Below, in pieces: positions 24,889 to 56,972 of a DNA stretch of 64,000 nt (position 1 is the first letter of the stretch; each line of letters starts with the position of its first letter). Both the position numbers and the translations under genes were made by a program. Origin of the DNA: Hyphomicrobiales bacterium (lineage in GTDB: Bacteria > Pseudomonadota > Alphaproteobacteria > Rhizobiales > JACESI01); contig JBDWKL010000043.1 of assembly GCA_039973685.1 (NCBI GenBank), positions 62,001 through 126,000 of the forward strand, read 5' to 3'. The notes under the pieces were generated by a model. The model had not been told where the DNA came from, searched no databases, and saw nothing but the letters and a program-made list of their open reading frames with translations.

Positions 24889-24892
24889 AAGC

Positions 24893-26383
24893 TCATTTTG
24901 CTACCACTGGCCATGCGTTATCGGCATGAGGTTCAACCTGTCTTTGCCCTTTTAACAGATGATCTTTTTGCAACCCTGTGCCGCCTGCAACAGCATCTTC
25001 AATTGGAATGATGTATTCCATATGGCCACCAAGCGCTTCAAAATCTTCACGGCGCATTGTGAATTCAATAGGTGCGACAAGCGCAGGTGTCGGGACATAA
25101 CCAAATGAATTATCCGGCATACGAGCGACATCAGACATGATGGTTATGCCACCACCAGGCCACCGATAGGCATCTGTGCCGCCACAGGTAACAGTGGTCA
25201 ATGCGGCTTGCGCCGACCGTGTTAATTTAACAGGGTTTTCCGTAACGCCTGCACGAAGCGAGCCACCTGCTCCGCCCATAAACAGGACGGAACATAATGC
25301 AGGTTCACAGTTTTCTTCAATGCGCTCAATTGAGTTTTGCAAACGATCAGGAATGTCTTTTTGAATTGGTTTTAAATCCGCATCCAATTCGTAATAGGCA
25401 AAGTGCTCGCCGGTTGTTGAAACCATCAACAGTGATTGCCCTTCAACCGCCACCTTGGCGTTGAAATCACCCAAAATCACCAACGGATCGTCAAGGTTTG
25501 TGCCGCCCCATCCTGTGCCCGGTCCAGCGACTTGAAAATACCGACCTGGAGTTGAACGGCGGCCCTTAATTTTTATGCCTGTTTCTTTCCATCCAATCAC
25601 TTTACCCGCTTGGTGTTCAGACATTACGCCTGTGATGTGGTCATCAACCACCACAACTTCATCAACGAGATCTTTCCATTGGGAGGCAAACATACCGACA
25701 GTTGCAGAACCACAACCAACCCGCATTCGCTCCTCAACAACGCCATTTATGATGGGAGCTTTATCTGCTTGGACGACAATTTCTGACCCTTCATCAATGG
25801 TAAGAGTAACGGCCTCACCGTTGCACAATGCCAATAGAGTTGAGCAGGTAACGCGGCCTTCTTTTTTGCCACCACCAGTAAGGTGATGCACACCACCGAG
25901 TGACAACATTTGAGAGCCGTATTCACCAGTCGTTACGTGGCCAATTGGCTCTCCATTTGCACGCACAAGATTGCGTTCAGGCCCAAGATGTCGATCTGTG
26001 TCGATTTTTACTTTTGCGCCGCAATAACTAAAGATACCTTCGGTCACGACGGTGATCATATCAACCCCGTCAACTTCACTAGAAACAATGAACGGCGCTG
26101 GTTTGTAATCTGGGTATGTTGTGCCAGCCCCGATAGCCGTTACAAACTGATCTTTCGGTTTGACGACGTTGCCATCCCAAGGCTTGTCCTCTTCAAGAAA
26201 AGGAACCACGTCACCACCGTCTTCTATGCGTCGTTCCAACACGACCAGCGGGTCAAGTCGAACTAAGTTGCCGCCTTCATTAGCATAGCGGTCACATGCA
26301 CCTGATTTCCCATCAGCGATATAACACATGACGGGGCACGCATCGCAGCGGATTTTTTCTGGTTTTACTGGAGCTTCAGTCAC
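24893..26383 (-). CDS. 6-hydroxynicotinate reductase, iron-sulfur protein
   Basis: 496 residues from a GTG start that follows the TAA of the dehydrogenase gene directly and has GGAG eight bases upstream. The N-terminal CDACPVMCYIADGKSGAC gives four Cys (13, 16, 20, 30) for a [4Fe-4S] cluster. The family is that of Eubacterium barkeri hydroxynicotinate reductase (EC 1.3.7.1), which uses reduced ferredoxin to convert 6-hydroxynicotinate to 1,4,5,6-tetrahydro-6-oxonicotinate. The family call rests on the Cys-rich N-terminus, the length and the neighbours: nicotinate dehydrogenase upstream, enamidase nearby and a ferredoxin in the operon. Other conserved-looking parts are TTGEYGSQMLSLGGVHHL, GPGTGWGGTNLDDP and YRWPGGGITIMSDV. 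Confidence 0.85.
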   Translation of the reverse strand: MTEAPVKPEKIRCDACPVMCYIADGKSGACDRYANEGGNLVRLDPLVVLERRIEDGGDVVPFLEEDKPWDGNVVKPKDQFVTAIGAGTTYPDYKPAPFIVSSEVDGVDMITVVTEGIFSYCGAKVKIDTDRHLGPERNLVRANGEPIGHVTTGEYGSQMLSLGGVHHLTGGGKKEGRVTCSTLLALCNGEAVTLTIDEGSEIVVQADKAPIINGVVEERMRVGCGSATVGMFASQWKDLVDEVVVVDDHITGVMSEHQAGKVIGWKETGIKIKGRRSTPGRYFQVAGPGTGWGGTNLDDPLVILGDFNAKVAVEGQSLLMVSTTGEHFAYYELDADLKPIQKDIPDRLQNSIERIEENCEPALCSVLFMGGAGGSLRAGVTENPVKLTRSAQAALTTVTCGGTDAYRWPGGGITIMSDVARMPDNSFGYVPTPALVAPIEFTMRREDFEALGGHMEYIIPIEDAVAGGTGLQKDHLLKGQRQVEPHADNAWPVVAK

Positions 26384-29125: not shown

Positions 29126-29969
29126 GATCAAGCCTCCCTTGTACGTCGGCAATAACGCGGCCTACCAATTCTCGGCTTGCATCCATTCGATAAACTCCAC
29201 TTGCCCGCACATCATCAATTGGGGCTAAGTCTTTCATGTGTTCAGCTAAGATGAATTCTGGCGTAATTTTATCGAGCGGTTGACCAACAAGTGCCGCTTC
29301 CAGTGCCGTTAGCCGCTTTGCGACAAGTGAACACGAACCAACACTAATAGCAGCGCCTAAAATTGTATTTTGATCATCCACTTCAATTCTCGCTGCAACC
29401 ATGGAAATTGAGATGACTAAATATTTTCGTGCGCCAAGCTTCAAAAAGCTCGAAGCACCTTTTGCCGCGTCTGCTGGAATAATGATCGCGGTTACAATTT
29501 CATCATCGCTCAAATCAATTTTACGGTTGCCCAAAACAAAGGCAGAGATTGGAAGCCGACGATTGCCGTCGATTGACGTTATTTCGACCAATGCATCTAG
29601 CGATAACAAAGGAGGCATGCCATCAGCTGCCGGAGATGCATTGCAAATGTTGCCTGCTAATGTTGCTCTATTTTGAATTTGCACGGACCCTACTTCGCGA
29701 GCCGCTAATTTCAAGCCATCAAAAGCTGGAGGCAGATCAGCTTTAATCACATCAGTCCACGTAACCAACGCACCAATCGACCAAGAACCATCAGACCGTT
29801 TCGTAATTTTCTTCAGGCCAGCTATTTTTGAAATATCCAGTATATTTCCTTCAGGCTGCCGATCTTGCAGACTAGGATAGAAGTCTGTTCCTCCCGACAA
29901 CATTGACCACTTATTCGAAGATAAAAGATCAAGAGCTGCATCCAGCGTTTTTGGACATTCAAATATCAT
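29109..29969 (-). CDS. FAD-binding subunit (subunit M) of the molybdenum hydroxylase
   Basis: 286 residues, normal for the CoxM/XdhB FAD chain. WSMLSGGTDFYPSLQDRQ is the FAD-binding loop near residue 25. VGSVQIQNRATLAGNICNASPAADGMP is the second FAD motif and includes NRATLAGN. LKLGARKYLVISISMVAARIEV belongs to the CO_deh_flav_C domain. It passes electrons from the iron-sulfur clusters of the next gene product to an acceptor. Its last 17 bases overlap the start of the fused chain, so the two are translated together. Confidence 0.92.
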   Translation of the reverse strand: MIFECPKTLDAALDLLSSNKWSMLSGGTDFYPSLQDRQPEGNILDISKIAGLKKITKRSDGSWSIGALVTWTDVIKADLPPAFDGLKLAAREVGSVQIQNRATLAGNICNASPAADGMPPLLSLDALVEITSIDGNRRLPISAFVLGNRKIDLSDDEIVTAIIIPADAAKGASSFLKLGARKYLVISISMVAARIEVDDQNTILGAAISVGSCSLVAKRLTALEAALVGQPLDKITPEFILAEHMKDLAPIDDVRASGVYRMDASRELVGRVIADVQGRLDHANSI

Positions 29970-30043
29970 ATTCTATCTCATTGGTTCACAAACGAGCTCA
30001 ACGGCATTTTCAAATTCTATAGAGCGCATATCGATTAAACGTC

Positions 30044-30379
30044 TCAATCACCAACACCCGGTTCAGGTGATAGATGAGCCTCTTTCGATGCCACTCCATC
30101 CCACTTTGCAGCATCAGCAGGAGCCTCACCTTGCTCTGTGATATTTGGCCAAACCTTTGCATATTTTGCGTTGATTTCTAACCACTTCTCCAGCCCAGGT
30201 TCTGTATCTGCTTTAATTGCCTCAGCAGGGCATTCAGGCTCACAAACACCGCAGTCGATACATTCATCAGGATGGATCACAATGAAATTTTCACCGATGT
30301 AAAAACAATCGACAGGACAAACTTCAATGCAGTCTTGATACTTACATTTAATGCAGTTTTCAGTTACGACGTACGTCAA
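30044..30379 (-). CDS. fdxA: 7Fe ferredoxin, FdxA type
   Basis: 111 residues. [18 protein letters not shown] at the N-terminus and [12 protein letters not shown] around residues 40-51 are the Cys pattern of Azotobacter ferredoxin I-type [3Fe-4S]/[4Fe-4S] proteins. The extended tail ends SPEPGVGD. The start is TTG: TTGA overlaps the stop of the aldehyde oxidoreductase gene, and GAGGG lies seven bases before it. Being cotranscribed with an aldehyde:ferredoxin oxidoreductase and 6-hydroxynicotinate reductase, it is the natural electron shuttle between them (inference). Confidence 0.93.
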
Positions 30380-32100
30380 TACACCACCCTCGTTTCAATC
30401 AAATTGGCCATATATTCGTTGATTTCACCACTCTTCAAGCGCGCCTTTTGGCCCGTTGGTGGAAGCTCTTCTTTTAAGAAAAATTCTGGCAACTCATCAT
30501 CTTCAGCGGTGAATCCAGCATCATCATTGAACGCCTTTTCAAGCCGCAACGTTTCAATTCCAATATCCTTGATGAAATCAGGATCAACATCACATTGATG
30601 GGCATCATTTATGGCATCGGCGATGAGCTTTAAATTGTCATCTGTTACTGATCTACCGAAAACACAAAGACCAAAAGAGTCAGCAACGGCACTATTGACC
30701 TGCATTCTGAAGCTTTCAGCGACCAGCTCCTCAATGGACTTATCATCACACTTGAAACCTGGCGCATTTCCAACGGTGTGATCAGCGCCTTGGGCCGTCA
30801 ACATCATTGAAATTCCGGTGACTTCAATGATACGCGGATCATAAGCACTAATTGCCTGCTTCTTGATGACGGGAACACGCTCCACACCAAGCCCCTCGCC
30901 AACACGTGCTGTTCCTTGCGCGAGAAATTCCCCACGTTCGCCACCAGCACGAATTTCCGTCAAACAATGTTTCATGAATTCCAGATCGCCAAATTCGGCT
31001 TCACCAGCCTCCATCAACACCCCAATGGTTGCACCAAGTTCGATACTATCCACACCGAGATCGTTGGCCGTTTCATTGAGCAGTGCGACATCATCAGGTT
31101 CGGTCAACCCGCAGTTAGTGCCAAGCAAACCAATGGTCTCGTACTCCAAGGGAGAAACAAGCTCTCGGCCATCTTTATCAACGTACACATTGCTACATTT
31201 GATCAAACAACCAGGCATACATGCGTGTGAAATTTCACCACCCCGCGAGGAATTTAACTCACGAATGTAATCACCGCCCATCTTCAACGGGCCACCGTCT
31301 GGAGGTGTTAGTTGTCCTGATGAAAAATTGCGAACGGGCAATGCGCCCATGTAGTTTGTGAGATCCCCCACCATTGCTGTCCCTGTGGACTTCAACGTTT
31401 GGATCGGAACCGCCTCATTCAGCATTTTGCCATATTCTTTTACCGCACCCATGACCTTTTTACGATCATGCACAGGCGGCATTTTGTGCTTATCGATGAC
31501 GATCGCTTTAATTTTCTTAGCGCCCATCACTGCACCCACACCACCTCTAGCCGCTAAGCGTGATGGTCTGTTATCGGTATCTGAAAACGCGATACCAGCC
31601 ATAAGGCCGAGATATTCGCCAACAGGACCGCAAAGCGCGAGGGATACTTTTTGCCCATATTCTTCATGGAGTTTGGCGGCGCAATCAAAATTACCTAGCC
31701 CCATATAAGGTGCTGCATCATGAAAAGTGATGGGGCCTTCTTTTGGAATATGCAGGACAACCCAATCATCTGAGGCGCCATTGAATATGATCGTGCCAAT
31801 TTCCAATTGGCCCATTGCATAAGCAAAAGTGCCGCCGCTATTGGCTTCCTTTATTCCGCCAGTCAAAGGGCTCTTACACCCCACACTCAATCTATTGGCA
31901 TTGGAAAAATTAGTTCCTGCAAAAGGGCCTGCGGAGAAAATCAGCGGGTTTTCTGGTGCAAGCGGATCAACCTTTGCCACATCTCGCTCAACCAAGGTGC
32001 GAGCAATTAAATATCTCCCAGCCTCAGCAACAGCACGCGCTGACATCTCTTGACTTTCAATAGCCTGCGACTTCAGATCAATCTCAATATGCTTCCTCAT
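30376..32100 (-). CDS. aldehyde:ferredoxin oxidoreductase family tungsten/molybdenum enzyme
   Basis: 574 residues from MRKHIEIDL, whose ATG has GGAGGGG seven bases upstream. [20 protein letters not shown] and [18 protein letters not shown] are the AOR N-domain pterin-binding stretches. CMPGCLIKC (CxxCxxxC) plus Cys in FGLCVFG give the [4Fe-4S] ligands of the C-domains. Family members oxidise aldehydes to acids and reduce ferredoxin. They are common in anaerobes and less usual in alphaproteobacteria. In this operon the expected substrate is the aldehyde made by enamidase (2-formylglutarate) or its decarboxylation product glutarate semialdehyde. It is the first gene of the seven-gene operon 32100-22807 and is divergent from gcdH. 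Confidence 0.9.
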
Positions 32101-32163
32101 AGCAAATCCCCTCCAATGCAAGCACAACCCTAAAGAAGCTTAGTGATAGCACTCTATTATTAA

Positions 32164-45242: not shown

Positions 45243-46277
45243 TTAACCGTATCGGTAAGGACGGCCAGCTTTTTGCATATCGGCGTTGTATTTACGGAAA
45301 ATATCAACGATTTTTGCTTTGGTTTCTGATTCTGCTGCGATCTCGTCCCAGAACTTAATCGCGGCATTTTCAACCTGCGCCCATTCAGCATCTGGAATGG
45401 ATGTCAGTTTCATTTTCGGACCATTGACGCGAAGGTTCGCTTCGCCGCCCCAATACCACCACTGACGGTAGTAATGGCTTTGCTCCATACAAACTGTAAG
45501 CAGCGCTTTCAGGTCATCAGGAAGCTCGTTCCAACGCTCCATGTTGGAGAAGAAGTGACCAATCCATGCACCAGAAATATTATTGGTGAGGAAGTAGTTT
45601 GTCACGTCAGCCCAACCAACGGTGTAGTCTTCGGTGATGCCTGACCATGCGATGCCATCAAGTTCGCCGGTTTGAACAGCAACCTCAATATCTTCCCAAG
45701 GAAGGGTTACTGGCACAACACCAAACTGTGCAAGGAAGCGGCCCGCTGTTGGGAATGTGAAGACCTTTTTGCCCTTCAAGTCAGCCAATGAATTGATTGG
45801 GTCTTTGGTTGCAAAATGGCATGGATCCCAAGCGCCCGCAGAAATGTGCTTCACGCCAACTTTGGAATATTCTTCATCCCAAATTTCTTTCAAACCATAT
45901 TGGTTGAATAAAACTGGCACATCCAAAGAGTAGCGAGAACCAAATGGGAAATAGCCGCCGAAAACGGTTACTTCAGTTGGTGATGCCATTGAATCATCAT
46001 CTGATTGCACAGCATCAATGGTGCCGCGTTGCATCGCTTGGAAGAGCTCACCTGTTGGAACCAATTGATCAGCGAAGAACAGTTCAATCTGCATTCTATC
46101 GCCAGCAATTTTATTGAATGTGTCGATAGCAGGTTTCACCACATGCTCAGCCAAAGCGGCACCTGCATAAGTCTGCATGCGCCACTTAATTGTCGATTGC
46201 CCAATGGCGGGTGTCGCCAAAGCAGCGGCTGGGGCTGCCATTGCAGCGCCCTTGATAAAGGTACGTCTTGTTGTCAT
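45243..46277 (-). CDS. TRAP transporter substrate-binding protein, TakP-like, Tat signal
   Basis: 344 residues. The N-terminus TTRRTFIKGAAMAAPAAALATPAIGQS is a twin-arginine signal, so the protein is predicted to be exported folded by Tat. IKWRMQTYAGAALAEHVVKPAID, AVQTGELDGIAWSG (ligand carboxylate site region) and FFSNMERWNELPDDLKALL are typical of the DctP subgroup that includes the 2-oxo-acid binding protein TakP. The large permease gene lies upstream, so in this operon the binding protein follows the permease genes. Confidence 0.92.
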   Translation of the reverse strand: MTTRRTFIKGAAMAAPAAALATPAIGQSTIKWRMQTYAGAALAEHVVKPAIDTFNKIAGDRMQIELFFADQLVPTGELFQAMQRGTIDAVQSDDDSMASPTEVTVFGGYFPFGSRYSLDVPVLFNQYGLKEIWDEEYSKVGVKHISAGAWDPCHFATKDPINSLADLKGKKVFTFPTAGRFLAQFGVVPVTLPWEDIEVAVQTGELDGIAWSGITEDYTVGWADVTNYFLTNNISGAWIGHFFSNMERWNELPDDLKALLTVCMEQSHYYRQWWYWGGEANLRVNGPKMKLTSIPDAEWAQVENAAIKFWDEIAAESETKAKIVDIFRKYNADMQKAGRPYRYG

Positions 46278-46332
46278 CTCAGTATCTCCTTGCTGTTAAT
46301 CGTATCGTTTTTAATCACGCTTCTTAGGGCGC

Positions 46333-47658
46333 TTAGTTTCCGTAAACCGTTTGTGGCAACCACAAAGCAATCTGCGGGAAAATCATAATTGTCACCAAGG
46401 CCAAAACCATGACGGCAACGAAGGGAATGATAGAGCGGTAAATATCGCTCAACGTAATTTCGGGTGGCGACATGGCCCGCATCAAAAATAAATTGTAGCC
46501 AAACGGCGGCGTCATATAAGCGATTTGGGTCGTGATCGTATAAAGCACGCCATACCAAATGAGATTGAACTCAAGCGCACCCACCAGCGGAATATAAAGC
46601 GGCGCGACAATCACAAGCATGGCTGTGTCGTCTAAGAATGTACCCATCAAAATGAAGCTAAGTTGCATCAAGATGAGGATCACCCAAGGGGATAGGCCAA
46701 GCCGCTCGGTGAACAAGGCTTCAATCGCCTTCACTGCGCCTAAGCCATCAAACACCGCGCCAAAGGCAAGAGCTGCAAGAATGATCCACATGAACATGCA
46801 AGTTATGCCGAGCGTGTTTTTCAGCGATGTCTCAAACACCTGCCACGTCATGCGACGTTTTGCGACAGCGGCGAGGAAAGCGGTGATTGCGCCGATGGCG
46901 GAACTTTCAACCAGCGATGTCCAGCCGTTCACAAACGGGATCATCATCGCAAAGAAAATGCCGAACGGTAGCAGGCCTGCAAAGAGCAAACGGATCTTCT
47001 CCGCTTTCGGCATGTCGCGTTCTTCTTCCGATAAAACCGGACCAAGTGACGGGTTCATACGGCAGCGAACAGCAATGTAAATTACGAACATTGCGGCCAT
47101 CAATAAGCCCGGCACAATGCCTGCCAACCAAAGCTGACCAACCGGCTGACGCGCAATCATCGCGTAGAGCACCAACACAACAGACGGTGGGACGAGGATA
47201 CCAAGCGAACTGCCCGCCTGCACAACACCCGTCACCATGCGTTTGTCATAACCACGGCGCAAAAGTTCAGGCAGCGCAATGGTCGCGCCAATCGCCATGC
47301 CTGCAACGGAGAGGCCGTTCATAGCGGAAATCAACACCATCAAACCAATGGTCCCAATCGCCAATCCGCCGCGCAACCCGCCCATCCACACATGGAACAT
47401 ACGGTAGAGGTCGTCAGCAATGCGGCTTTCAGAAAGGATGTAGCCCATGAAAACAAACATTGGCACGGTCAACAACGGATACCAGCGCATGAGTTTGATG
47501 CTTTGTGAAAACGCAATATCAAAGCCACCGCGATCCCCCCAAAGAGCAAGGGCTGCAATAACGGCGACGAAACCAATAGCACCGAACACACGTTGGCCTG
47601 TAAACAGCAGCACCATCATGGTCGCAAACATGAATATGGCGATCATCTCATAAGACAT
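46333..47658 (-). CDS. TRAP transporter large permease subunit
   Basis: 441 residues, ~12 membrane segments. AMNGLSVAGMAIGATIALPELLRRGYDKRM, VQAGSSLGILVPPSVVLVLYAMIAR, SFILMGTFLDDTAMLVIVAPLYIP and AYMTPPFGYNLFLMRAM match DctM of the TakP-associated subgroup (DUF-like FLDD motif). It lies 2 bases after the small subunit gene. Confidence 0.94.
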   Translation of the reverse strand: MSYEMIAIFMFATMMVLLFTGQRVFGAIGFVAVIAALALWGDRGGFDIAFSQSIKLMRWYPLLTVPMFVFMGYILSESRIADDLYRMFHVWMGGLRGGLAIGTIGLMVLISAMNGLSVAGMAIGATIALPELLRRGYDKRMVTGVVQAGSSLGILVPPSVVLVLYAMIARQPVGQLWLAGIVPGLLMAAMFVIYIAVRCRMNPSLGPVLSEEERDMPKAEKIRLLFAGLLPFGIFFAMMIPFVNGWTSLVESSAIGAITAFLAAVAKRRMTWQVFETSLKNTLGITCMFMWIILAALAFGAVFDGLGAVKAIEALFTERLGLSPWVILILMQLSFILMGTFLDDTAMLVIVAPLYIPLVGALEFNLIWYGVLYTITTQIAYMTPPFGYNLFLMRAMSPPEITLSDIYRSIIPFVAVMVLALVTIMIFPQIALWLPQTVYGN

Positions 47659-47660
47659 GG

Positions 47661-48227
47661 CTAGACCTCCTCCCCGCGCAACCGAAGGACATCTTTGGCA
47701 AGTTCAGACAGTGCCTGCGCCAGCATGAGTAATATTCCGACGCACATCAGTGATTTGATCGGCCACAGATAGGGCCGCCAAATGGTGCGGCTTCGTTCTA
47801 AAGTGCCGGTTTCCTTTTCACCTGTTGCCAGATCAAAGAAAAAGCTAAGCGGTTCTGAGCCAAAATATCCAAGCGAATAAGCCGTTGAACTCAAACCACC
47901 CCATAACAAAACACCGAGATAACCAAGCAGACAGAAGACCGTGATTGCATCAACCGTCGCCTTCTTCTTTGGCGACCAGTCGTCGTAAAATAAGTCCATC
48001 CGCACATGAGAACCCATCTGAATGGCATAAGGCCCACCGAGGAAGAAATAAGCGATCATCCCAAATTGTGCGACTTCCAGCGTCCATAGGGATGGCTGAT
48101 CTGCAAACTTGCTGATGGTTGACCAAAGCAGCACGGCCATCATGGCGAAAATGCCATACATAATGATGCGGCCAATGCGGTAGTTGAAACCATCGACAAC
48201 GGTGATGAAGGTTCTTAGCGACTTCAT
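47661..48227 (-). CDS. TRAP transporter small permease subunit
   Basis: 188 residues with four membrane segments (YGIFAMMAVLLWSTISKFAD, FGMIAYFFLGGPYAIQMG, ITVFCLLGYLGVLLWGGL, LWPIKSLMCVGILLMLAQALSEL). GSHVRMDLFYDDWSPKKKA in the cytoplasmic loop is the standard small-subunit motif. The start overlaps the stop of the amidohydrolase gene by 4 bases. Confidence 0.92.
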   Translation of the reverse strand: MKSLRTFITVVDGFNYRIGRIIMYGIFAMMAVLLWSTISKFADQPSLWTLEVAQFGMIAYFFLGGPYAIQMGSHVRMDLFYDDWSPKKKATVDAITVFCLLGYLGVLLWGGLSSTAYSLGYFGSEPLSFFFDLATGEKETGTLERSRTIWRPYLWPIKSLMCVGILLMLAQALSELAKDVLRLRGEEV

Positions 48228-49006
48228 TGCGCTACCTCCGTCACCGGTTCATCAACGCAGAGCTTTACAGCATCCTCAATCCAACTGACTAAAGTGTCGG
48301 CCATTGCGTTGCATTGTTTTGAGGTGGCAATCAAATCGCTGCGAACTTCAAGCATGACATTGAGCAGCCCTCTTTGAACCCCATGAAGCGCTAATGTGTG
48401 GGTTACCCCATCTTGCTTGCCATAGGGCTGATTTAAACGAATGTCATAGCCAGCAGCCACCTGCATTAAAGCGTCCGCAAATCGGTCATCATCATCATGC
48501 AATACACCGATCTCAACTGCGCGCTTTTCCCCTTTGTAAACGGGGGTAAAACTATGGATGGTGATAAGTACTGTTGGCGCATCACTCTTATCCAAGACAT
48601 CACTCAACAATTGTTCAAATGGACGATAACAAGCCTCAATGCGCTCGTTCTTTTGCTCGTCGCTCAAATTTTGATTGCCCGAAATTGTATAGACTTCGCT
48701 CGTTTCAGGCATAGCGTCCGTAGCTTCTGGCGGGCGATTACAATCATAGACGAGACGTGAAATCTTGCTAGAAACCAAAGGTGCATCGAGCTTTTCAGCC
48801 ATATGCTTGGCCGTCTCAAATGCACCTAAATCCCAAGCGATATGGCTACGTTGCGCTTCATCACTAAGACCGAGGCTATCAAAACGTTCTGGAATGAAGG
48901 CGCTTGCATGTTCGCAGACGAGAATAACGCTGTGGTTCCCTGCCGAGTTTACCACCGAAGCTATCTCTCCATACTCTGAACGAACCACAACTTGTTTCAA
49001 ACGCAC
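48224..49006 (-). CDS. N-formylglutamate amidohydrolase family protein
   Basis: 260 residues. VILVCEHASAFIPERFDSLGLS, HIAWDLGAFETAKHMAEKLDAPLVSSKISRLVYDCNRP and TVLITIHSFTPVYKG are conserved blocks of the HutG/N-formylglutamate deformylase family. Residues in CEHAS, HIAWD and IHSF are likely zinc ligands or catalytic. The tabulated start is GTG; a TTG two codons later has GAGG at the better distance (8 bases). It heads the operon with a TRAP importer, a GS-like ligase and two dehydrogenases, so the natural substrate may be an N-acyl amino acid other than formylglutamate. No other hut genes are present. Confidence 0.88.
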   Translation of the reverse strand: MRLKQVVVRSEYGEIASVVNSAGNHSVILVCEHASAFIPERFDSLGLSDEAQRSHIAWDLGAFETAKHMAEKLDAPLVSSKISRLVYDCNRPPEATDAMPETSEVYTISGNQNLSDEQKNERIEACYRPFEQLLSDVLDKSDAPTVLITIHSFTPVYKGEKRAVEIGVLHDDDDRFADALMQVAAGYDIRLNQPYGKQDGVTHTLALHGVQRGLLNVMLEVRSDLIATSKQCNAMADTLVSWIEDAVKLCVDEPVTEVAQ

Positions 49007-49156: not shown

Positions 49157-50020
49157 TTGAGTTCGGAAACAATTGCAGAAAAGCTACGTCTTAAAGATGA
49201 ACAGCTCACGCGCTCAGAGCGCCAACTGAGCGATGTTATTCTGCAAAATTATCCTGTCTCCGGCCTCGGCACGATTACCACGCTTGCCAGTGCTGCCAAG
49301 GTTTCAACACCAACGGTTGCACGGCTTGTTCAAAAACTTGGATTTAGTGGCTTTTCAAACTTTCAAAATGCATTGAAAGCAGAGCTTGATGAAAAAATTT
49401 CAAGCCCTCTCACCAAGCGCGACAAATGGGTAGATGACGCGCCAGACGCGCATTTGTTGAACCGCTTCACCAAAGCAGTGATTGATAATATCAGCCAATC
49501 AATGGCTAAAATCGATCCGCAAGATTTCGATAAAGCATGTGGGCTTTTAAGCGACCCTGAAAGAAACATCTTCGTTATGGGTGGGCGCATCACGCGGGCA
49601 CTTAGCGATTATTTCTTCCTGCATATGCAGGTCATCCGCGAGAATGTTGTCCACATTCCTTCCAACTCAAACGCATGGCCGCACTACTTGCTTGATTTCA
49701 AAAAGGGCGATGTCGTGGTGGTTTATGATATTCGCCGTTATGAAAATGGCACCTTAAAGTTTGCTGAAATGGCGCGTGAACGTGGGGTTGAGATTATTCT
49801 CTTTTCTGACCAATGGGTGTCCCCTGTCGCCAATCATGCAACCGTTTGCTTCACCAACCACATCGCCGCCCCGTCTGCATGGGATTCGAATATCTCGACC
49901 ATGTTGATTTCAGAAATCGTGATTGCAGAAGTTCAAGAACGCAATTGGGACAAAACCCGCCCGCGCATGGAAGCGCTGGAAGTGATGTTTGATCGAACAC
50001 GATTTTTCCGGAAATTTTAG
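49157..50020 (+). CDS. MurR/RpiR family transcriptional regulator
   Basis: 287 residues from a TTG start with GAGGA eight bases upstream; there is no in-frame ATG near the N-terminus. The RpiR helix-turn-helix spans residues ~1-80 (LTRSERQLSDVILQNYP, TTLASAAKVSTPTVARLVQKLGFSGFSNFQ). The SIS sugar-isomerase domain follows, with NIFVMGGRITRALSDYFFLHMQ and KKGDVVVVYDIRRYENGTLKFAEMARERGVEIILFSD. It is divergent from the N-formylglutamate amidohydrolase/TRAP operon and probably represses it. The effector is unknown. Confidence 0.93.
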   Translation: MSSETIAEKLRLKDEQLTRSERQLSDVILQNYPVSGLGTITTLASAAKVSTPTVARLVQKLGFSGFSNFQNALKAELDEKISSPLTKRDKWVDDAPDAHLLNRFTKAVIDNISQSMAKIDPQDFDKACGLLSDPERNIFVMGGRITRALSDYFFLHMQVIRENVVHIPSNSNAWPHYLLDFKKGDVVVVYDIRRYENGTLKFAEMARERGVEIILFSDQWVSPVANHATVCFTNHIAAPSAWDSNISTMLISEIVIAEVQERNWDKTRPRMEALEVMFDRTRFFRKF

Positions 50021-50122: not shown

Positions 50123-51211
50123 TTAGTTAGGGATGCGTGTTTCAACGCCCTTCACGAGCCAGTTGATGCCAAGCATGTCGCCATCAGAAATCGCAGACCC
50201 TGCAGCAACCTTCTCAGCGCCATCTTGATCAACAATCGGGCCGCTCATTGGGTGAAACGCACCGCTCTTGATGCTGGCCGTAACTTTGTCGATTTCAGCT
50301 CTTTGTTCAGCACTCAAGTCACTGGACAATGAGGCAACGCTCACTGCATCGTCAGCCATTCCACCCCAATAAGGCTCGCCTTTAAAAGTGCCATCCATCG
50401 CCGCTTTCACGCGCTCAGTGAAATAAGGAACCCAATCGATTGCAAGAGACGCAAGCAATTTAGTTGGTGCGTATTTCTTCATGTCGGATGATGTGTTGAT
50501 GACATAAACACCTTCTTCTTCACCCACAGTCACAACGGATGGTGTGTCTTGGTAAAGCGAGAAAACCACATCGGCTGATTGTGAAATCAGTGAGCGTGCA
50601 GATTCTTGTGCTTTGGATGGATTGAACCAAGAGTTCAGCCAAACAACCTTCACTGTCACATCTGGGTTCACCTTCTGCGCACCAAGTGTGAATGTGTTGA
50701 TGATGCCAACCACTTCTGGAATTGGGTAAGCAGCAACAATGCCAAATGTGTTTGACTTCGTTAGATAGCCAGCAGCAATACCTGCGATATAAGCGCTCTC
50801 ATAATTGCGGGTTTGGAAATTGCCGAAATTATCAGCGGTTTTGAAACCACTGGCATGAATAAAGCTCATGTCTTTTTTACGTGCGGCAAGTTTCAAACCG
50901 TCGTTCATATAACCGAACGAACCAAGCATGATCATGTCCGCGCCTTGAGAGGCCATTTGGTTCATGATGCGTGCAGCGTCTGGTCCTTCAGGGACATTTT
51001 CAACAACAACGGTTTCCACCTTGTCACCAAAAGCTGCTTCAATGCCCTTGCGGCCTTTATCAAGCTCTTGCGCCCAACCCACGTCACCCACTGGTGATGG
51101 ATAAACAAATCCAACTTTGAATTTGTCGGCAGCACTTGCTGTTAAGCTAAGTCCCGCTGTTAACGCTGCTGCGACCAGCGTCTTTGTTAATGTTCTCGAT
51201 AGTTTCTTCAT
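50123..51211 (-). CDS. BMP family ABC transporter substrate-binding protein (nucleoside/purine type)
   Basis: 362 residues. It has a Sec signal peptide (LVAAALTAGLSLTASAADKF). The mature protein has the Bmp/Med/TmpC fold: FVYPSPVGDVGWAQELDKGRKGIEAAFG, ADMIMLGSFGYMNDGLKLA, ARNYESAYIAG-type (FQTRNYESAYIAGIAAGYLT) and VYQDTPSVV-like stretches. The family binds nucleosides, purines or simple ring compounds. It is the last gene of a seven-gene operon with two permeases, a double ATPase, a GST and a split Rieske oxygenase, so the ligand is probably the oxygenase substrate. Confidence 0.93.
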   Translation of the reverse strand: MKKLSRTLTKTLVAAALTAGLSLTASAADKFKVGFVYPSPVGDVGWAQELDKGRKGIEAAFGDKVETVVVENVPEGPDAARIMNQMASQGADMIMLGSFGYMNDGLKLAARKKDMSFIHASGFKTADNFGNFQTRNYESAYIAGIAAGYLTKSNTFGIVAAYPIPEVVGIINTFTLGAQKVNPDVTVKVVWLNSWFNPSKAQESARSLISQSADVVFSLYQDTPSVVTVGEEEGVYVINTSSDMKKYAPTKLLASLAIDWVPYFTERVKAAMDGTFKGEPYWGGMADDAVSVASLSSDLSAEQRAEIDKVTASIKSGAFHPMSGPIVDQDGAEKVAAGSAISDGDMLGINWLVKGVETRIPN

Positions 51212-51234
51212 AATGGTCTCCCTTTTGTTGTAAT

Positions 51235-52158
51235 CTACGAATTGGCTTTAAACGTTTCCCCCAAACTCATCGGACTTTTCTGTCTAATGAGAATTGGGTT
51301 TCTTGAAATTATGGCAAGAACGACAATCGTGATGATGTAGGGCGATGCCGACAAAATCTGGGATGGGACGTTAAATCCAATTCCCTGAATTGACAGTTCA
51401 AGCAATGTGAGTGCGCCAAATAAATATGCACCAAACATAACACGCGGCACCATCCATGTGCCAAAGACGATAAGAGCAACGACAATCCAGCCTCGCCCTG
51501 CGACCATGCCATCTGCCCATAACGGTGTATAGGCCGTGGAAAGATAAGCGCCGCCGATGCCTGCCATCGCTCCACCAAAAGCCACACATGACAAACGTAT
51601 GAGCGCGACATTATATCCCAGTACATGGGAGGAGTGAGGCGATTCACCCACGGCACGAATGATCAAGCCTAGTTTGGTTTTCTCAAGCAAATACCAAATC
51701 AAAATCGCAAGCGCGATCGCGCCATAAACCAGAATATCTTGATCAAAAATTGCACGGCCCAAGAAGGGTATATCGCTCAAAATTGGCAGGTCCAATTTCG
51801 CAAAAGTCGTAACAGTCGTGCCTTCATATTCTTTGCCGATGGCCGCTGAAATGCCGAGCCCCAAGATGCCGATGGAAAGACCAGACGCCACCTGATTTGC
51901 CAAGAACACAATCGTAAGCGCTGCATAGACAAGCGACAGAAGCATCGCAACAACGGCACCACCTAAAAAACCAAGGGCATGGGAACCGGTAAGCGCCACA
52001 ATGACGAAACCTGACGCGGCACCAACTGCCATCATGCCCTCAACGCCAAGGTTCAACATACCGGATTTCTCCGCCACCAATTCGCCCAACGCTGCATATA
52101 AAAGAGGTGTGGCAGCAGCCAATGTTCCGGCGAGAATAAAGATTAAAGGTTCAATCAT
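51235..52158 (-). CDS. BPL/BMP-type ABC transporter permease, second subunit
   Basis: 307 residues from MIEPLIFILAGTLAAATPL; the ATG overlaps the preceding permease stop (ATGA). The in-frame ~118 residues upstream are shadow sequence of the neighbouring gene in another frame and have no membrane-protein character. ELVAEKSGMLNLGVEGMMAVGAASGFVI, VRAVGESPHSSHVLGYNVALIRLSC and GAMAGIGGAYLSTAY are typical of the NupQ/YufQ type. There are about 8-9 membrane helices. Confidence 0.93.
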   Translation of the reverse strand: MIEPLIFILAGTLAAATPLLYAALGELVAEKSGMLNLGVEGMMAVGAASGFVIVALTGSHALGFLGGAVVAMLLSLVYAALTIVFLANQVASGLSIGILGLGISAAIGKEYEGTTVTTFAKLDLPILSDIPFLGRAIFDQDILVYGAIALAILIWYLLEKTKLGLIIRAVGESPHSSHVLGYNVALIRLSCVAFGGAMAGIGGAYLSTAYTPLWADGMVAGRGWIVVALIVFGTWMVPRVMFGAYLFGALTLLELSIQGIGFNVPSQILSASPYIITIVVLAIISRNPILIRQKSPMSLGETFKANS

Positions 52159-53255
52159 TCTGCAGCCTCCGGCGTTGATTTCACGCTCACTGTCGTCGTT
52201 GAAAACCGAAGCTTGTGAGTGAGCAAGAAGCTGCTTGCGAGATAGAAGGTAAGCAGCATGCCCTGAAAGATCGCCGTCACCGCACTGGGGAGCCCGATGG
52301 ATAGCCTTGCGAAATCTCCACCAACATAAATGAGCGCCATGAGTGCGCTGGATAAAACAATGCCAATAGGGTTCAACCCACCTAGAAACGCTACGATGAT
52401 CGCCGCAAAGCCATAACCGGGTGAGATGTTTCGTTGCAACATTCCCAGAGGTCCAGCGACTTCTGCAACCCCTGCCGCTCCTGCCGCAGCGCCGCCAATC
52501 AACAATGCCATCCACACCGAACGGTTCGCTGAAAAACCTGCATAGCGAGAAGCCGCAGGCGCCAATCCGCCGACGATTAATTGATAACCGAGCAGACTAC
52601 GCTGGATGAAAACCCATGCAATCACCGTTGCAAAAAGCCCTAGAAAGAGCGACGCATTAACGCGGGTGTCTTCCATAATAATGGGGAAGAGTGCGGCCTC
52701 TCCAAAGGTGATGGATTGCGGGAAGTTAAAGCCTGCGGGATCTTTTAAGGGCCCTGTCACGAGGAAATATAAAAGCTGCAAGGCAATGCTCGACATCATG
52801 AAGGTGACAAGAATTTCGTTGGCATTGAAGCGCACTTTAAGCCATGCAGCGACACCTGCCCAAGCCATGCCACCCAAAGCACCAACGACGACCATGGCGA
52901 CCAGCAAAAACGGAGACGATGAGCCTTCAAACAGGATTGCCAAATAGCCACCACAGATCGCACCGATAAGAAGTTGGCCTTCTGCGCCAATATTCCAAAC
53001 CTTTGCCCGAAATCCAATCGCGAGCCCTTGAGCAATCAACAAAAGCGGCCCCATTTTCAAAAGCACTTCGCCGATACCGTAGGTCGATTGAAGCGGTTCA
53101 ATGAAAAAAGCATGGAAGCCGGCGCTTGGGGATTTTCCGTAAAAGAGGAACAAGCCACTCCCTGCAATCGCGGTTAGAAAAATCGCAATCGAGCTAACCA
53201 GCAAAGGAGCAAACAGCGAATTTTCGGTTCTTGGTTCAATTTTAAATCTAGCCAT
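52155..53255 (-). CDS. BMP-type ABC transporter permease, first subunit
   Basis: 366 residues from MARFKIEPRTENS; this ATG overlaps the end of the ATPase gene by 8 bases. About 9-10 membrane helices include FAPLLVSSIAIFLTAIAGSGLFLFYG. LIAQGLAIGFRAKVWNIGAEGQLLIGAICGGYL and GAAAGAAGVAEVAGPLGMLQRNISPGYGFAAIIVAFLGGLNPIGI are conserved in the NupP/YufP type. It pairs with the following permease. Confidence 0.93.
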   Translation of the reverse strand: MARFKIEPRTENSLFAPLLVSSIAIFLTAIAGSGLFLFYGKSPSAGFHAFFIEPLQSTYGIGEVLLKMGPLLLIAQGLAIGFRAKVWNIGAEGQLLIGAICGGYLAILFEGSSSPFLLVAMVVVGALGGMAWAGVAAWLKVRFNANEILVTFMMSSIALQLLYFLVTGPLKDPAGFNFPQSITFGEAALFPIIMEDTRVNASLFLGLFATVIAWVFIQRSLLGYQLIVGGLAPAASRYAGFSANRSVWMALLIGGAAAGAAGVAEVAGPLGMLQRNISPGYGFAAIIVAFLGGLNPIGIVLSSALMALIYVGGDFARLSIGLPSAVTAIFQGMLLTFYLASSFLLTHKLRFSTTTVSVKSTPEAAE

Positions 53256-54795
53256 TTGCCACCGCCTTTCCCTCTTGATTTGAAAGGGCATCAAAATTTC
53301 CAGTCATGGCAAGACCGATCCGGTCCACGCTCATGTCTTTGCGGTCAACAGACGGCGACAGGCGGCCACGGAAGATTACGTGAAGACGGTCGCAAACTTC
53401 TAACAGCTCACTTAATTCTTCTGAGATAATGATGAGAGCGACGCCTTCGTTTTTCAATTCCAAAAGCCGTTGACGGATGGCAGCCGCCGCCCCAACATCA
53501 ACGCCCCAAGTGGGTTGTGATACAATCAGCACTCTTGGTTTCAGGCTGATCTCACGCCCAACGATGAACTTTTGCAAGTTACCACCAGAAAGACTACGTG
53601 CGTCACTCGCCTCCCCGCCACACCGCACATCATAGTCTTCAATGACCGATTTGGCGAAGCGCTTCATGGCGCCAAAATTCAAAAAGCCCTTCGAAGTCAG
53701 GCCAGCGTTATAGCCCGTCAAAACGCCATTGTTTGAAAGCGAAAGCCCCTGCACGGCACCGCGCCCGATGCGCTCTTCGGGAATAAGATGCAAACCACGT
53801 TTGCGCCGTTCTGCTGGGCCGAGCGAGCTGATCCCTTCGCCGTCCAATGTAATAAATTCATTGTGCGCTGTTGGCAGTTTGGTTTCACCTGAAAGCAGAG
53901 CCGCCAGCGTTTGTTGGCCATTACCAGACACGCCCGCGATACCGACAACCTCTCCTGCTTTAACCGACATATCAACTTGATCAAGCGAGGTCGCAAAGGG
54001 GTCTTCGGGCTTATAGGTCAACGCATTAAGGCGGATCATTTCCTTAGCCGTGGTCTTATCATCGCCCCGATCAATAATCGGGATGTCGTGGCCAATCATC
54101 AAACGAGTGAGCGATTCATTCGTCTCTTCTCTCGGGTTGACCCGCCCCATCAATTTACCACCACGCAAGATCGTCGCGACATCACAAAGCTCTCGAATTT
54201 CGTCGAGCTTATGGGAAATGAAAATGATGCCATACCCCTCTTTGGCAAATGCTCGGAGCGTATCAAACAACTGCTCAATGCCCTGCGGCGACAAAACAGA
54301 AGTCGGCTCATCCAGCACTAACAATTTGGGTTTACGCAAAATACTGCGCAAAATTTCAACCCGTTGACGCTCGCCCACAGTGAGTGACTGCACCTTTGCA
54401 TCAGGGTTTATATCAAGTCCAAAGCGGCTTGCAGCTTCTTCGATGTTCTTCGTGAGTTCAGGTATTGAACCAGGCACGGCGAGCGAAATGTTTTCGACGA
54501 CACTCAATGTTTCAAACAGCGAGAAATGCTGAAAAACCATCCCGATACCGACCGAACGCGCATGGGCAGGATTACGAATTTTGATCGACTGACCCTGCCA
54601 TTTCATCTCGCCTTTATCGGGCGGGTGAACACCATAGATGGTCTTCATCAAGGTTGATTTGCCAGCCCCATTCTCACCCAAGACGGCGTGGATTTCACCA
54701 TTATAAACGGTCAAATCAATATCATCATTGGCGACAACCGACGGGTAGATTTTCGTGACGCCTTTAAGTTCTAGCAATGGCACTTTACTCGTCAT
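53248..54795 (-). CDS. BMP-type ABC transporter ATPase with two nucleotide-binding domains
   Basis: 515 residues from MTSKVPLLELKG, whose ATG has GGAG seven bases upstream; it overlaps the GST stop by 11 bases. NBD1 has Walker A GENGAGKSTLMK, SLTVGERQRVEILR and LLVLDEPTSVLSPQ. NBD2 has GVSGNGQQTLAALLSG in place of a full Walker A, LSGGNLQKFIVGREIS, and VLIVSQPTWGVDVGAA. The Glu of NBD2 Walker B is Gln (SQPTWGVD), as is common in this family, and leaves one hydrolytic site. It energises the paired permeases. Confidence 0.94.
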   Translation of the reverse strand: MTSKVPLLELKGVTKIYPSVVANDDIDLTVYNGEIHAVLGENGAGKSTLMKTIYGVHPPDKGEMKWQGQSIKIRNPAHARSVGIGMVFQHFSLFETLSVVENISLAVPGSIPELTKNIEEAASRFGLDINPDAKVQSLTVGERQRVEILRSILRKPKLLVLDEPTSVLSPQGIEQLFDTLRAFAKEGYGIIFISHKLDEIRELCDVATILRGGKLMGRVNPREETNESLTRLMIGHDIPIIDRGDDKTTAKEMIRLNALTYKPEDPFATSLDQVDMSVKAGEVVGIAGVSGNGQQTLAALLSGETKLPTAHNEFITLDGEGISSLGPAERRKRGLHLIPEERIGRGAVQGLSLSNNGVLTGYNAGLTSKGFLNFGAMKRFAKSVIEDYDVRCGGEASDARSLSGGNLQKFIVGREISLKPRVLIVSQPTWGVDVGAAAAIRQRLLELKNEGVALIIISEELSELLEVCDRLHVIFRGRLSPSVDRKDMSVDRIGLAMTGNFDALSNQEGKAVANG

Positions 54796-55477
54796 CAGCC
54801 CGCTCCAACTCTTTTTGCACCGAAGGAAGTGGCTTATCTGGGCTTTCGTGGATCGGATGAATTCCAGGCATTTCGATAAAACGATCAAGCTTGCGCAAGG
54901 TCACCATCCATCGGTTGATCGCAGGATAATCATCAAGCATCACACCACCATCCGGTGCGAGGGCCACGTAAGGAAAACAAGCAATATCCGCAATGGTGAG
55001 GTGCTCACCAACGAGGAAAGGTGAGCCATCAAACTCTTGTTCGCTCAAACGTTCCTCCAACAATCTAAGCGCTTGGTACGCGCCTGTCTGTGCGGCTTGA
55101 AGGTCCGTTTTGATGTCCAGCATTTCATGAACCCGCGCGGCACCTGCTGTCTTGGTGATCGCATTTGAAAACGACAACCAGTTCATCACCTCGCCCAAAA
55201 GAGCGCTTGGTTGCTTTGGAAAGAAACGTCCGCTTTGGTCGAACTTATCGGCGATATAAACCAGTATCGCAGAGGTTTCAGTGAGCACGAGATCACCATG
55301 CGTCAAAACCGGAATAGTGCCCGCCGGATTGATCTTCAAGAAAGCTTGGCTCTTATGCTCTTTACCCGGATAAAAATCGACGGGAACAGCGTCATATTCA
55401 ACCGCCAAAAACGAAAGCAGCAAGCGCACCTTATAGCAATTGCCAGACAAGATATAATCATAGAGGCGAAGCGTCAT
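54785..55477 (-). CDS. glutathione S-transferase-like protein in a Rieske oxygenase operon (NdmE-like context)
   Basis: 230 residues from MTLRLYDYILSGNCYK; its ATG overlaps the oxygenase stop (ATGA). The N-domain has SGNCYKVRLLLSFLAVEYDAV, INPAGTIPVLTHGD (cis-Pro) and LTETSAILVYIADKF. The C-domain has GEHLTIADIACFPYVALAPDGG. Sequence alone suggests a normal GST. The context is unusual: it sits between a split Rieske oxygenase and a purine-type importer. In caffeine-degrading Pseudomonas, NdmE is a GST homologue that assembles the Rieske-less oxygenase NdmC with the Rieske donor NdmD, so a structural role here is possible (inference). Confidence 0.9.
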   Translation of the reverse strand: MTLRLYDYILSGNCYKVRLLLSFLAVEYDAVPVDFYPGKEHKSQAFLKINPAGTIPVLTHGDLVLTETSAILVYIADKFDQSGRFFPKQPSALLGEVMNWLSFSNAITKTAGAARVHEMLDIKTDLQAAQTGAYQALRLLEERLSEQEFDGSPFLVGEHLTIADIACFPYVALAPDGGVMLDDYPAINRWMVTLRKLDRFIEMPGIHPIHESPDKPLPSVQKELERADDE

Positions 55478-56316
55478 GCGGCCTCCGTTTCTGCGCCATA
55501 ATAAAGGCCACGTTTTTTCAACCAACGACGATAAGCAATAGAGGTTAGATCCGCTTTTGTTGGCACTTCAGATTTTGGATCAAGCGGCAGCAACTTGGGT
55601 ATTTGGTTTTCCAAAATTGAACGATCTTGCAGAAAAATCGTCTGCTGAAAGTGGATCAGGTCAGTGTGACCATTTTCATCATCATAAAGCGACATCCAAG
55701 GCCAAACCGCGCATTCTTGTTCGCCAGTTGGTTGGACAAACAAAGTGATAATGTCCCACTCATCTTCCTTGGCTGGGCAGGTTTTATAAAGCACGGCAAC
55801 CGTTGGCGCTGGTACGCGGTACATGTAATCCGTGATAATACCACCTTCAGCAGAAACGGCTGCTTGAGGTTGGAAGAATTGAACCTTCCTAGCCCAAATT
55901 TCGTTGTCTTCTTCGCTCACTTTATAAGCCCGCACTTCGGGATGATCTTCCTCGCCCAAAATGCCCGTATGCACATAGGGAAAATGCGCGATATCGAGGA
56001 AGTTCTCAACGGCACGAAGAGGTGAGCATCTCACCTTGATACATCCACACGGCACGTGTCTGCGTCCATCATGTAAGGCCTCAGGCATTTCGAATACATC
56101 GTGTACTGGTTTGCCGAGCGACGTCCATAGATGGTCAAAGCGGGTGCATGATGAAAGCTTCGAGCCATCAGGGCCAATGACCTCGGCATTCCCCTCATCC
56201 AATCGGGTGATGGTAATTTCCTGCCCCATCAAAACCGTCTCGCGCGGGGCATTTAACTCAAGCCCACCAAACCAAGCAACGGGATACCATTCATCAATAG
56301 AAGCCTGAGTGATCAT
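55474..56316 (-). CDS. Rieske-type oxygenase catalytic component lacking a functional Rieske domain
   Basis: 280 residues, shorter than the ~340-440 usual for oxygenase alpha subunits. AVENFLDIAHFPYVHTG carries the mononuclear-iron His-x4-His pair, and the C-terminal IFLQDRSILENQ supplies the usual Asp and Glu region. The first ~100 residues (DEWYPVAWFGGLEL, ETVLMGQEITITR) follow a Rieske-like layout but contain no CxH...CxxH ligands. The cluster must therefore come from another protein, most likely the Rieske protein encoded directly upstream with an ATGA overlap. The substrate may be an N-methyl or other purine-type compound given the adjacent importer; this is inference. Confidence 0.88.
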   Translation of the reverse strand: MITQASIDEWYPVAWFGGLELNAPRETVLMGQEITITRLDEGNAEVIGPDGSKLSSCTRFDHLWTSLGKPVHDVFEMPEALHDGRRHVPCGCIKVRCSPLRAVENFLDIAHFPYVHTGILGEEDHPEVRAYKVSEEDNEIWARKVQFFQPQAAVSAEGGIITDYMYRVPAPTVAVLYKTCPAKEDEWDIITLFVQPTGEQECAVWPWMSLYDDENGHTDLIHFQQTIFLQDRSILENQIPKLLPLDPKSEVPTKADLTSIAYRRWLKKRGLYYGAETEAA

Positions 56317-56972
56317 GTCGTACCCTGCTCTAATTCAATTTCACGACGCGCCTGTTCAGCCCACCGCGATAGAACTTTCTTTTGTTCAGGTTCCATTGGT
56401 TCTTGTGACAAAATATGGAGATTAGTTTTGTTATCTGAAAGGGCCTGCAAGGCCAATATGGATGGAATTTTCTCAACATTAACCTTGGATGAAATAGCAT
56501 CATCCATGCCAAGTGCTGATCTAACATTTTGTAAGGGCGCATTGATCACTAAACTGCGCACCCCATGACCTTCTGGGCCATTTAAAGCCGCTTTATTTGC
56601 ATCTTCCTTTCCAACCCAGATTAATCCACCTTTTTGCACGCAATTAAATGCGGTCGCTTGGATTGTATCTGGCGGTGTTAATTCTGGATGCGCAGGGATG
56701 TATCGACACACAGTGTCTTCGCCGTAATGCCAACCGTGATAGATACAGGCCAGCATTTCACCGCGCACAAAGCCATAAGATAAGCGCATTCCACGATGGG
56801 GACAGCGATTTAACCACGCATGAACTTTACCTGAAAACGACCGCCATAATGCAATGTCATGGTCGCCGACAAAACTTCGAACAACCGCGCCTGCCTTTAA
56901 AAAATCATCAAGATAGACGGGCGTCCAATCATTCATCCCTTGTGTCTTGCTTTGAGTGGTCTGACCGGACAT
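56313..56972 (-). CDS. stand-alone Rieske [2Fe-2S] protein, partner of the oxygenase
   Basis: 219 residues. The Rieske domain (about residues 13-120) has CPHRGM and CIYHGWHYG, a complete C-x-H...C-x2-H set. A further ~85-residue C-terminal part (VRSLVINAPLQNVRSALGMDD and a charged helix ending ELEQGTT) has no recognised domain and no catalytic-iron His pair. It is the first gene of the seven-gene operon. A reductase that would feed it electrons is not encoded in the window. An alternative start, MNDWTPVYLDDF, lies 12 codons in. Confidence 0.88.
   Translation of the reverse strand: MSGQTTQSKTQGMNDWTPVYLDDFLKAGAVVRSFVGDHDIALWRSFSGKVHAWLNRCPHRGMRLSYGFVRGEMLACIYHGWHYGEDTVCRYIPAHPELTPPDTIQATAFNCVQKGGLIWVGKEDANKAALNGPEGHGVRSLVINAPLQNVRSALGMDDAISSKVNVEKIPSILALQALSDNKTNLHILSQEPMEPEQKKVLSRWAEQARREIELEQGTT

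Follow-up and report, generated by a model that had tools for sequence, protein, structure and literature searches.

A GST-associated oxygenase of the NdmC/NdmD/NdmE family with complementary metal-site chains, encoded with a predicted purine importer in a Hyphomicrobiales bacterium

We describe a minus-strand operon in a 64,000-nucleotide (nt) window of contig JBDWKL010000043.1, from assembly GCA_039973685.1 of a Hyphomicrobiales bacterium. The window is the whole stretch of DNA analyzed and all coordinates given are window positions. The operon encodes a Rieske chain, a catalytic chain, a glutathione S-transferase (GST)-family protein, and an ATP-binding cassette (ABC) importer with a BMP-type binding protein (Table 1). 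We interpret it as a GST-associated, complementary-chain oxygenase of the NdmC/NdmD/NdmE family that is combined with its own purine-base importer and most likely N-demethylates an imported methylated guanine-type purine. We estimate the probability of this interpretation at about 60%.

Two oxygenase chains with complementary metal sites

The metal sites of the oxygenase are distributed over two chains. In the Rieske chain, the cluster ligands Cys57, His59, Cys76, and His79 are invariant in 59 sequences. In the catalytic chain, the iron ligands His111, His116, and Asp231 and the bridging Asp108 are invariant in 28 sequences. Ligand roles were assigned from established Rieske oxygenase motifs. 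The Rieske chain has no DxxHxxxxH motif, and its shrunken catalytic domain is devoid of iron ligands. Conversely, the catalytic chain matches VanA_C only and retains a remnant Rieske domain without the cluster segment. This remnant was recognized by profile comparison: the N-terminus of the catalytic chain matches, at probability 95.6 and E 1e-8, the Rieske domain at the N-terminus of the Rieske chain. A second, weaker collinear stretch follows beyond the missing cluster segment.

Structural comparisons extend this picture. The AlphaFold2 model of the catalytic chain (mean predicted local distance difference test score, pLDDT, 84) aligns to SxtT 3-334 over 264 residues (Z 29.5). The Rieske-chain model (mean pLDDT 92) aligns through its residues 10-219 to GxtA 5-288 over 208 residues (Z 18.7). 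As the latter alignment spans GxtA 5-288, the C-terminal part of the Rieske chain sits in the place of the catalytic domain. On these models, each chain is most readily understood as an entire oxygenase chain from which one metal site has been lost, the two losses being complementary. A simple gene split, in which the chains would be halves of one cut gene, was rejected because both models align near full length to whole oxygenase chains. A preliminary description of this locus had referred to a “split” oxygenase; the profile and structure comparisons indicate two degenerate whole chains rather than gene halves. By sequence and by fold, the two chains match the one-piece oxygenases SxtT/GxtA and NdmA/NdmB best; these enzymes differ in having both metal sites in one chain and no GST, and they fall outside the clade of complementary chains.

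Relationship to NdmCDE

The closest characterized counterpart is NdmCDE, the 7-methylxanthine N7-demethylase of Pseudomonas putida CBB5, an enzyme of the kind that carries out the final demethylation in bacterial caffeine degradation. For comparison we used a P. putida plasmid region (L188), which qualifies as a true caffeine cluster: it encodes an NdmB homologue that matches PDB 6icl full length, together with frmA, frmB, and GntR. The caffeine-cluster gene map, including frmA and frmB, is given in PMC4408171. The window catalytic chain shares 39.6% identity with the NdmC of this region over 278 amino acids (aa), the Rieske chain 31% with the N-terminal part of NdmD over 177 aa, and the GST 46.5% with NdmE over 215 aa.

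Phylogenetic analysis places these proteins in one family. A tree was built from 62 complementary-type catalytic chains together with 31 one-piece Rieske oxygenases, NdmA and NdmB among the latter. The 62 chains form one side of a branch with support of 100/99. The matching Rieske chains likewise form one clade (support 100/98), and the two trees agree on two main subclades. Rieske chains of the Ndm-type subclade are mostly fused to a reductase, while those of the window’s subclade stand alone. The window catalytic chain falls outside the NdmC group of the caffeine clusters, within its own well-supported subclade. The trees thus indicate a single origin for the NdmCDE-like GST-associated oxygenases, separate from the one-piece enzymes. 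The parallel with NdmCDE that the preliminary description drew holds as homology and not as resemblance alone.

The two systems share the joint encoding of a catalytic chain without a Rieske cluster, a Rieske chain, and a GST. They differ in that NdmD is a Rieske-reductase fusion whereas the 219-aa Rieske chain of the window has no reductase, and in that the caffeine system uses a nucleobase symporter in place of a BMP/ABC importer. In addition, the window has an acylphosphatase-like gene and lacks NdmA/NdmB. NdmCDE-homologous clusters of unassigned function were reported in 2013 in 18 organisms, mainly Sinorhizobium and Mesorhizobium (Summers 2013, cited in PMC4408171). These clusters have the same general gene set as the window. 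That of S. meliloti pSymA is also accompanied by the same BMP-type importer, although the S. meliloti and S. medicae clusters differ from the window in having a Rieske-reductase fusion.

In S. meliloti pSymA and its relatives (L131, L142, L143, L145), two adjacent catalytic chains accompany a single Rieske-reductase fusion, and the flanks that were read hold one GST. The arrangement looks as though one electron-transfer partner served a pair of catalytic subunits. Plasmid pKNA08 of Komagataeibacter nataicola, from a kombucha tea culture (L132), carries two modules of Rieske, catalytic, and GST genes along with a PDR/VanB reductase, a partial frmA, and a pair of one-piece oxygenases grouping with NdmA/NdmB. 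This gene content resembles a methylxanthine pathway, here in an acetic acid bacterium grown on tea.

Conservation across genomes

The association of the three genes is conserved well beyond the window. A scan of a named genome collection yielded 80 window-like loci, picked by catalytic-chain similarity (56-65% identity), in hosts including Rhizobium, Mesorhizobium, and Rhodobacteraceae. Rieske, catalytic, and GST genes occur together in all 80. The acylphosphatase-like gene is found just upstream of the Rieske gene in 78, an amidohydrolase within 10 kb in 75, and a BMP protein in 73. A class-wide sample of 385 genomes contains nine short-type catalytic chains besides the window’s. In seven cases, Rieske and GST genes are found within a few kb; another has a fused Rieske gene nearby with the GST cut by the contig end, and the ninth is separated by ~10 kb from such a cluster on its contig. 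Likewise, Rieske and GST genes accompany the catalytic gene in each of 19 further clusters from genome surveys; one of these has a second catalytic gene ~14 kb away. Neither of these wider samples was selected for closeness to the window. Gene order within the clusters is shuffled among lineages.

Given this co-occurrence in all window-like loci and in the wider samples, a chance neighborhood was rejected. The preliminary description had proposed that its interpretation would fail if the GST were not conserved beside the oxygenase genes in relatives; it is conserved throughout the window-like loci and in the wider samples.

The GST and the acylphosphatase-like protein

A structural role has been postulated for NdmE, which is needed for both solubility and activity (PMC4408171). 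By homology, the window GST would act as a scaffold for the two oxygenase chains. It could in principle be a working glutathione enzyme instead, for example one that binds glutathione and traps formaldehyde as S-hydroxymethylglutathione where it is released. In keeping with this, Ser11, Cys14, and cis-Pro56 are conserved, most GSTs of the window’s kind retain the Glu/Asp-Ser/Thr glutathione-binding motif, and several modules lie beside an S-(hydroxymethyl)glutathione dehydrogenase gene. The role ascribed to NdmE argues otherwise, as does the replacement of the motif Ser by Ala in NdmE and several relatives, and we regard an enzymatic GST as improbable.

The acylphosphatase-like protein is probably a non-catalytic partner in the operon, judging from its sequence. 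The positions of the acylphosphatase catalytic Arg and Asn are occupied by Cys22 and Ala39 in the window and by other residues in aligned representative relatives. In their place, a new motif of roughly LIDAMEMGCSLGP is conserved. The protein is perhaps an assembly or structural subunit.

The importer and its binding protein

The closest solved relatives of the BMP protein are 3s99 from Brucella and AtzT (6pi5) of the AtzSTUVW importer, with full-length homology (E 8e-87 and 4e-80). AtzT binds guanine (0.11 uM), adenine (2.5 uM), and 2-hydroxyatrazine (2.2 uM), and adenine was modelled in the 3s99 structure (PMC6834077). The residues of the AtzT guanine site, Tyr45, Ser97, Phe98, Glu165, Trp194, Asn218, and Asn220, correspond to W, S, F, E, W, Y, and D in the window protein. 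The aromatic sandwich and the Ser, Phe, and Glu contacts are hence retained, whereas Tyr replaces Asn218 and Asp replaces Asn220, the latter as in adenine-modelled 3s99. These residues and relatives support the earlier designation of the importer as purine-type, and the window protein likely binds a purine. The importer ATPase also resembles NF047930, a putative B6 ABC transporter ATPase, below cut-off. A B6 transporter was rejected, as all scores are far below the curated cut-off and the solved relatives bind purines.

Alternatively, the oxygenase might act on a non-purine N-heterocycle or xenobiotic, such as an s-triazine or a methylated pyrimidine, the importer being no more than purine-like. 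AtzT accommodates ammeline as well as 2-hydroxyatrazine besides guanine (PMC6834077), and the window protein is altered at the positions of AtzT Asn218 and Asn220. Such a substrate nevertheless seems very unlikely to us: the operon is retained in a wide range of free-living rhizobia and of marine Rhodobacteraceae, and guanine deaminase or purine genes are nearby in several lineages.

Purine and formaldehyde gene context

Purine catabolism genes recur around the operon and its relatives. In loci with window-like gene order, a guanine deaminase follows the BMP gene. The L118 and L120 proteins exceed the curated cut-off, that of L126 falls marginally short of it, and those of L123 and L216 were recognized by similarity. 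Most rhizobial operons encode an amidohydrolase related to 8-oxoguanine deaminase that scores below its cut-off, and the Paracoccus operon (L135) encodes an 8-oxoguanine deaminase above cut-off. Homologues of AtzB, a related enzyme group, were recently assigned to N2,N2-dimethylguanine (PMC13054789). On the window’s contig, genes for urease, guanine deaminase (guaD), and xanthine dehydrogenase (xdh) lie within ~20 kb of the window’s right end. The operon is adjoined by genes for ABC proteins of the branched-chain type and for a Peripla_BP_5 binding protein, which we read as a urea importer.

Formaldehyde-detoxification genes favor N-demethylation for the family. The frmA gene, often with frmB, is directly beside the module in L211, L213, L214, and L227, and a partial frmA is ~6 kb away in L220. 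Both caffeine clusters also carry such genes.

The deaminase context also bears on an alternative reaction, molybdenum-independent hydroxylation of the purine ring. Guanine, for example, would be converted to 8-oxoguanine and then to urate by the neighboring 8-oxoguanine-deaminase-like enzyme. HpxDE, which converts xanthine to urate, provides a precedent for such hydroxylation. The Paracoccus enzyme and its sub-threshold rhizobial relatives are consistent with this route; furthermore, an HpxD-annotated oxygenase is a distant homologue and HpxO is beside the module in L130. However, the nearest characterized homologue is an N-demethylase, and several sister clusters contain the formaldehyde-detoxification genes described above. 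Xanthine dehydrogenase genes are, moreover, already present close to guanine deaminase in the window genome, and the neighbor in the closest operon relatives is guanine deaminase, not 8-oxoguanine deaminase. We consequently view ring hydroxylation as an unlikely function.

Elsewhere in the window genome, an 8-oxoguanine deaminase (G000:C21:90481-91821, L195) scores above the curated cut-off (646 bits). Its neighbors, read by eye, are an amidase, a creatininase-like protein, and a molybdenum hydroxylase.

Electron donor

Reductases are positioned variably in the family. Many Ndm-type clusters have a Rieske-reductase fusion; in Variovorax paradoxus (L134:8989-10803) it is the catalytic chain that carries the reductase, and the Paracoccus and Komagataeibacter clusters encode it as a separate neighboring gene. 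The earlier observation that no reductase is encoded near the window operon holds, and no NdmD-like reductase was found near the 80 window-like relatives. A VanB-like match in the genome was rejected as a dedicated reductase, since its neighbors identify it as PaaE in a phenylacetate operon.

Proposed function

Ordinary Rieske oxygenases are homotrimers in which electrons pass from each subunit to its neighbor. An enzyme whose two kinds of chain hold a single metal site apiece cannot have them alternate around such a trimer, which makes a scaffold plausible. In the mechanism we propose, the BMP protein and ABC permeases would import a guanine-like purine, as suggested by homology and site residues. 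An external reductase would reduce the Rieske cluster, from which the electron would cross the interface of a predicted complex to the mononuclear iron on the other chain. The iron would then activate O2 and oxidize the substrate, most likely with loss of the N-methyl group as formaldehyde. The GST would hold the two chains in register. On the basis of gene context, the demethylated purine may be passed to guanine deaminase and xanthine dehydrogenase, yielding urate and finally urea. The substrate might be 7-methylguanine or 7-methylxanthine from RNA turnover, a tentative assignment that we think has a lesser though appreciable chance of being right; other methylated guanines or adenines are possible.

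Several observations weigh against this interpretation. The C-terminus of the Rieske chain has no significant similarity to the catalytic domain by profile comparison, the match being one of structure only. No frmA or frmB was found above the counting threshold in the 80 window-like loci; as a result, the evidence for demethylation comes from outside the window’s closest subclade. The 8-oxoguanine-deaminase-like neighbors fit C8 oxidation too. The catalytic chain is absent in three other species of the window’s genus, so the operon is accessory, and it may be recently acquired. Moreover, no dedicated reductase is apparent in the window’s genome, whose two FNR-type matches are PaaE and one further protein.

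Locus organization and neighboring genes

Families of the window proteins were assigned by Pfam. The minus-strand run from 56972 to 50123 comprises seven genes, with five junctions overlapping by 4-11 nt and a last gap of 23 nt. Open reading frame (ORF) translations and Pfam matches agree with the coordinates, order, and families given for this run in the preliminary description. However, an eighth gene was missed. The acylphosphatase-like gene, 76 nt upstream of the Rieske gene and absent from the earlier gene list, belongs to the operon and is probably its first gene.

Table 1. Genes of the operon and its candidate regulator, in window coordinates.
Feature	Position	Strand	Evidence and remarks
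Acylphosphatase-like protein, 98 aa	57049..57345	-	Pfam PF00708, E 6e-9; probable operon gene 1
Rieske chain, 219 aa	56313..56972	-	Pfam Rieske; intact [2Fe-2S] site
Catalytic chain, 280 aa	55474..56316	-	VanA_C, E 7e-20; no Rieske domain; 4-nt overlap
GST-family protein (NdmE homologue), 230 aa	54785..55477	-	GST_N and GST_C; 4-nt overlap
ABC importer ATPase, two ABC domains	53248..54795	-	ABC_tran, two stretches; 11-nt overlap
ABC importer permease 1	52155..53255	-	BPD_transp_2; 8-nt overlap
ABC importer permease 2	51235..52158	-	BPD_transp_2; 4-nt overlap
BMP-type periplasmic binding protein, predicted purine-base binder	50123..51211	-	Bmp; 23-nt gap
RpiR/MurR-type candidate regulator	49157..50020	+	HTH_6 and SIS

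The RpiR-type protein is a candidate regulator. In L118, the acylphosphatase-like gene is immediately preceded, in the same orientation, by the gene for its homologue; in the window the regulator gene is convergent with the operon, making a regulatory role less certain. An Rfam scan of the window matched tRNA only, with no riboswitch match. Beside the regulator gene, the minus-strand region 45243-49006 encodes an N-formylglutamate amidohydrolase-family protein and a TRAP transporter. The same block adjoins the same oxygenase operon in L118 (81% identity for DctP and 50% for the amidohydrolase), which suggests common transfer or function.

A further minus-strand run (22807-32127) encodes two neighboring AA_synth (PF06684) proteins beside a branched-chain-type ABC importer. 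It also contains a molybdenum hydroxylase (FAD and Mo subunits), an aldehyde ferredoxin oxidoreductase, here in an aerobic-looking alphaproteobacterium, and two ORFs of 496 aa (24893-26383) and 309 aa (23959-24888) with no Pfam match at E 1e-8.

Significance

The NdmCDE-type family is already known, as is the presence of its homologues in rhizobia, and a 2015 review called NdmCDE very unique among Rieske oxygenases (PMC4408171). In the open-licence literature, we found no description of the stand-alone Rieske subclade, the complementary degeneration, the acylphosphatase-like partner, or the guanine-deaminase-linked importer context, and nothing direct on this operon or on bacterial 7-methylguanine demethylation.

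Our analysis indicates that NdmCDE is one branch of a larger family that arose once and that, beyond the caffeine clusters, is common among rhizobia and marine bacteria, where its members usually carry a purine importer. With this wider family, one can test what a Rieske oxygenase needs a GST for and by what path electrons travel when the metal sites lie on separate chains. That each chain has lost the metal site kept by the other provides a clean case of paired degeneration after duplication. More speculatively, rhizobia and marine Rhodobacteraceae might share a widespread salvage route for RNA-derived methylated guanines, performed by duplicated chains each lacking one metal site, with the GST and the non-catalytic acylphosphatase-like protein replacing the missing trimer contacts; we hold this extended scenario to be doubtful. 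The likely substrates, methylated purines from nucleic-acid turnover, would represent a nitrogen source whose bacterial catabolism is little described. The relatives of the operon suggest a role in the recycling of modified purines as a nitrogen source by soil and marine bacteria.

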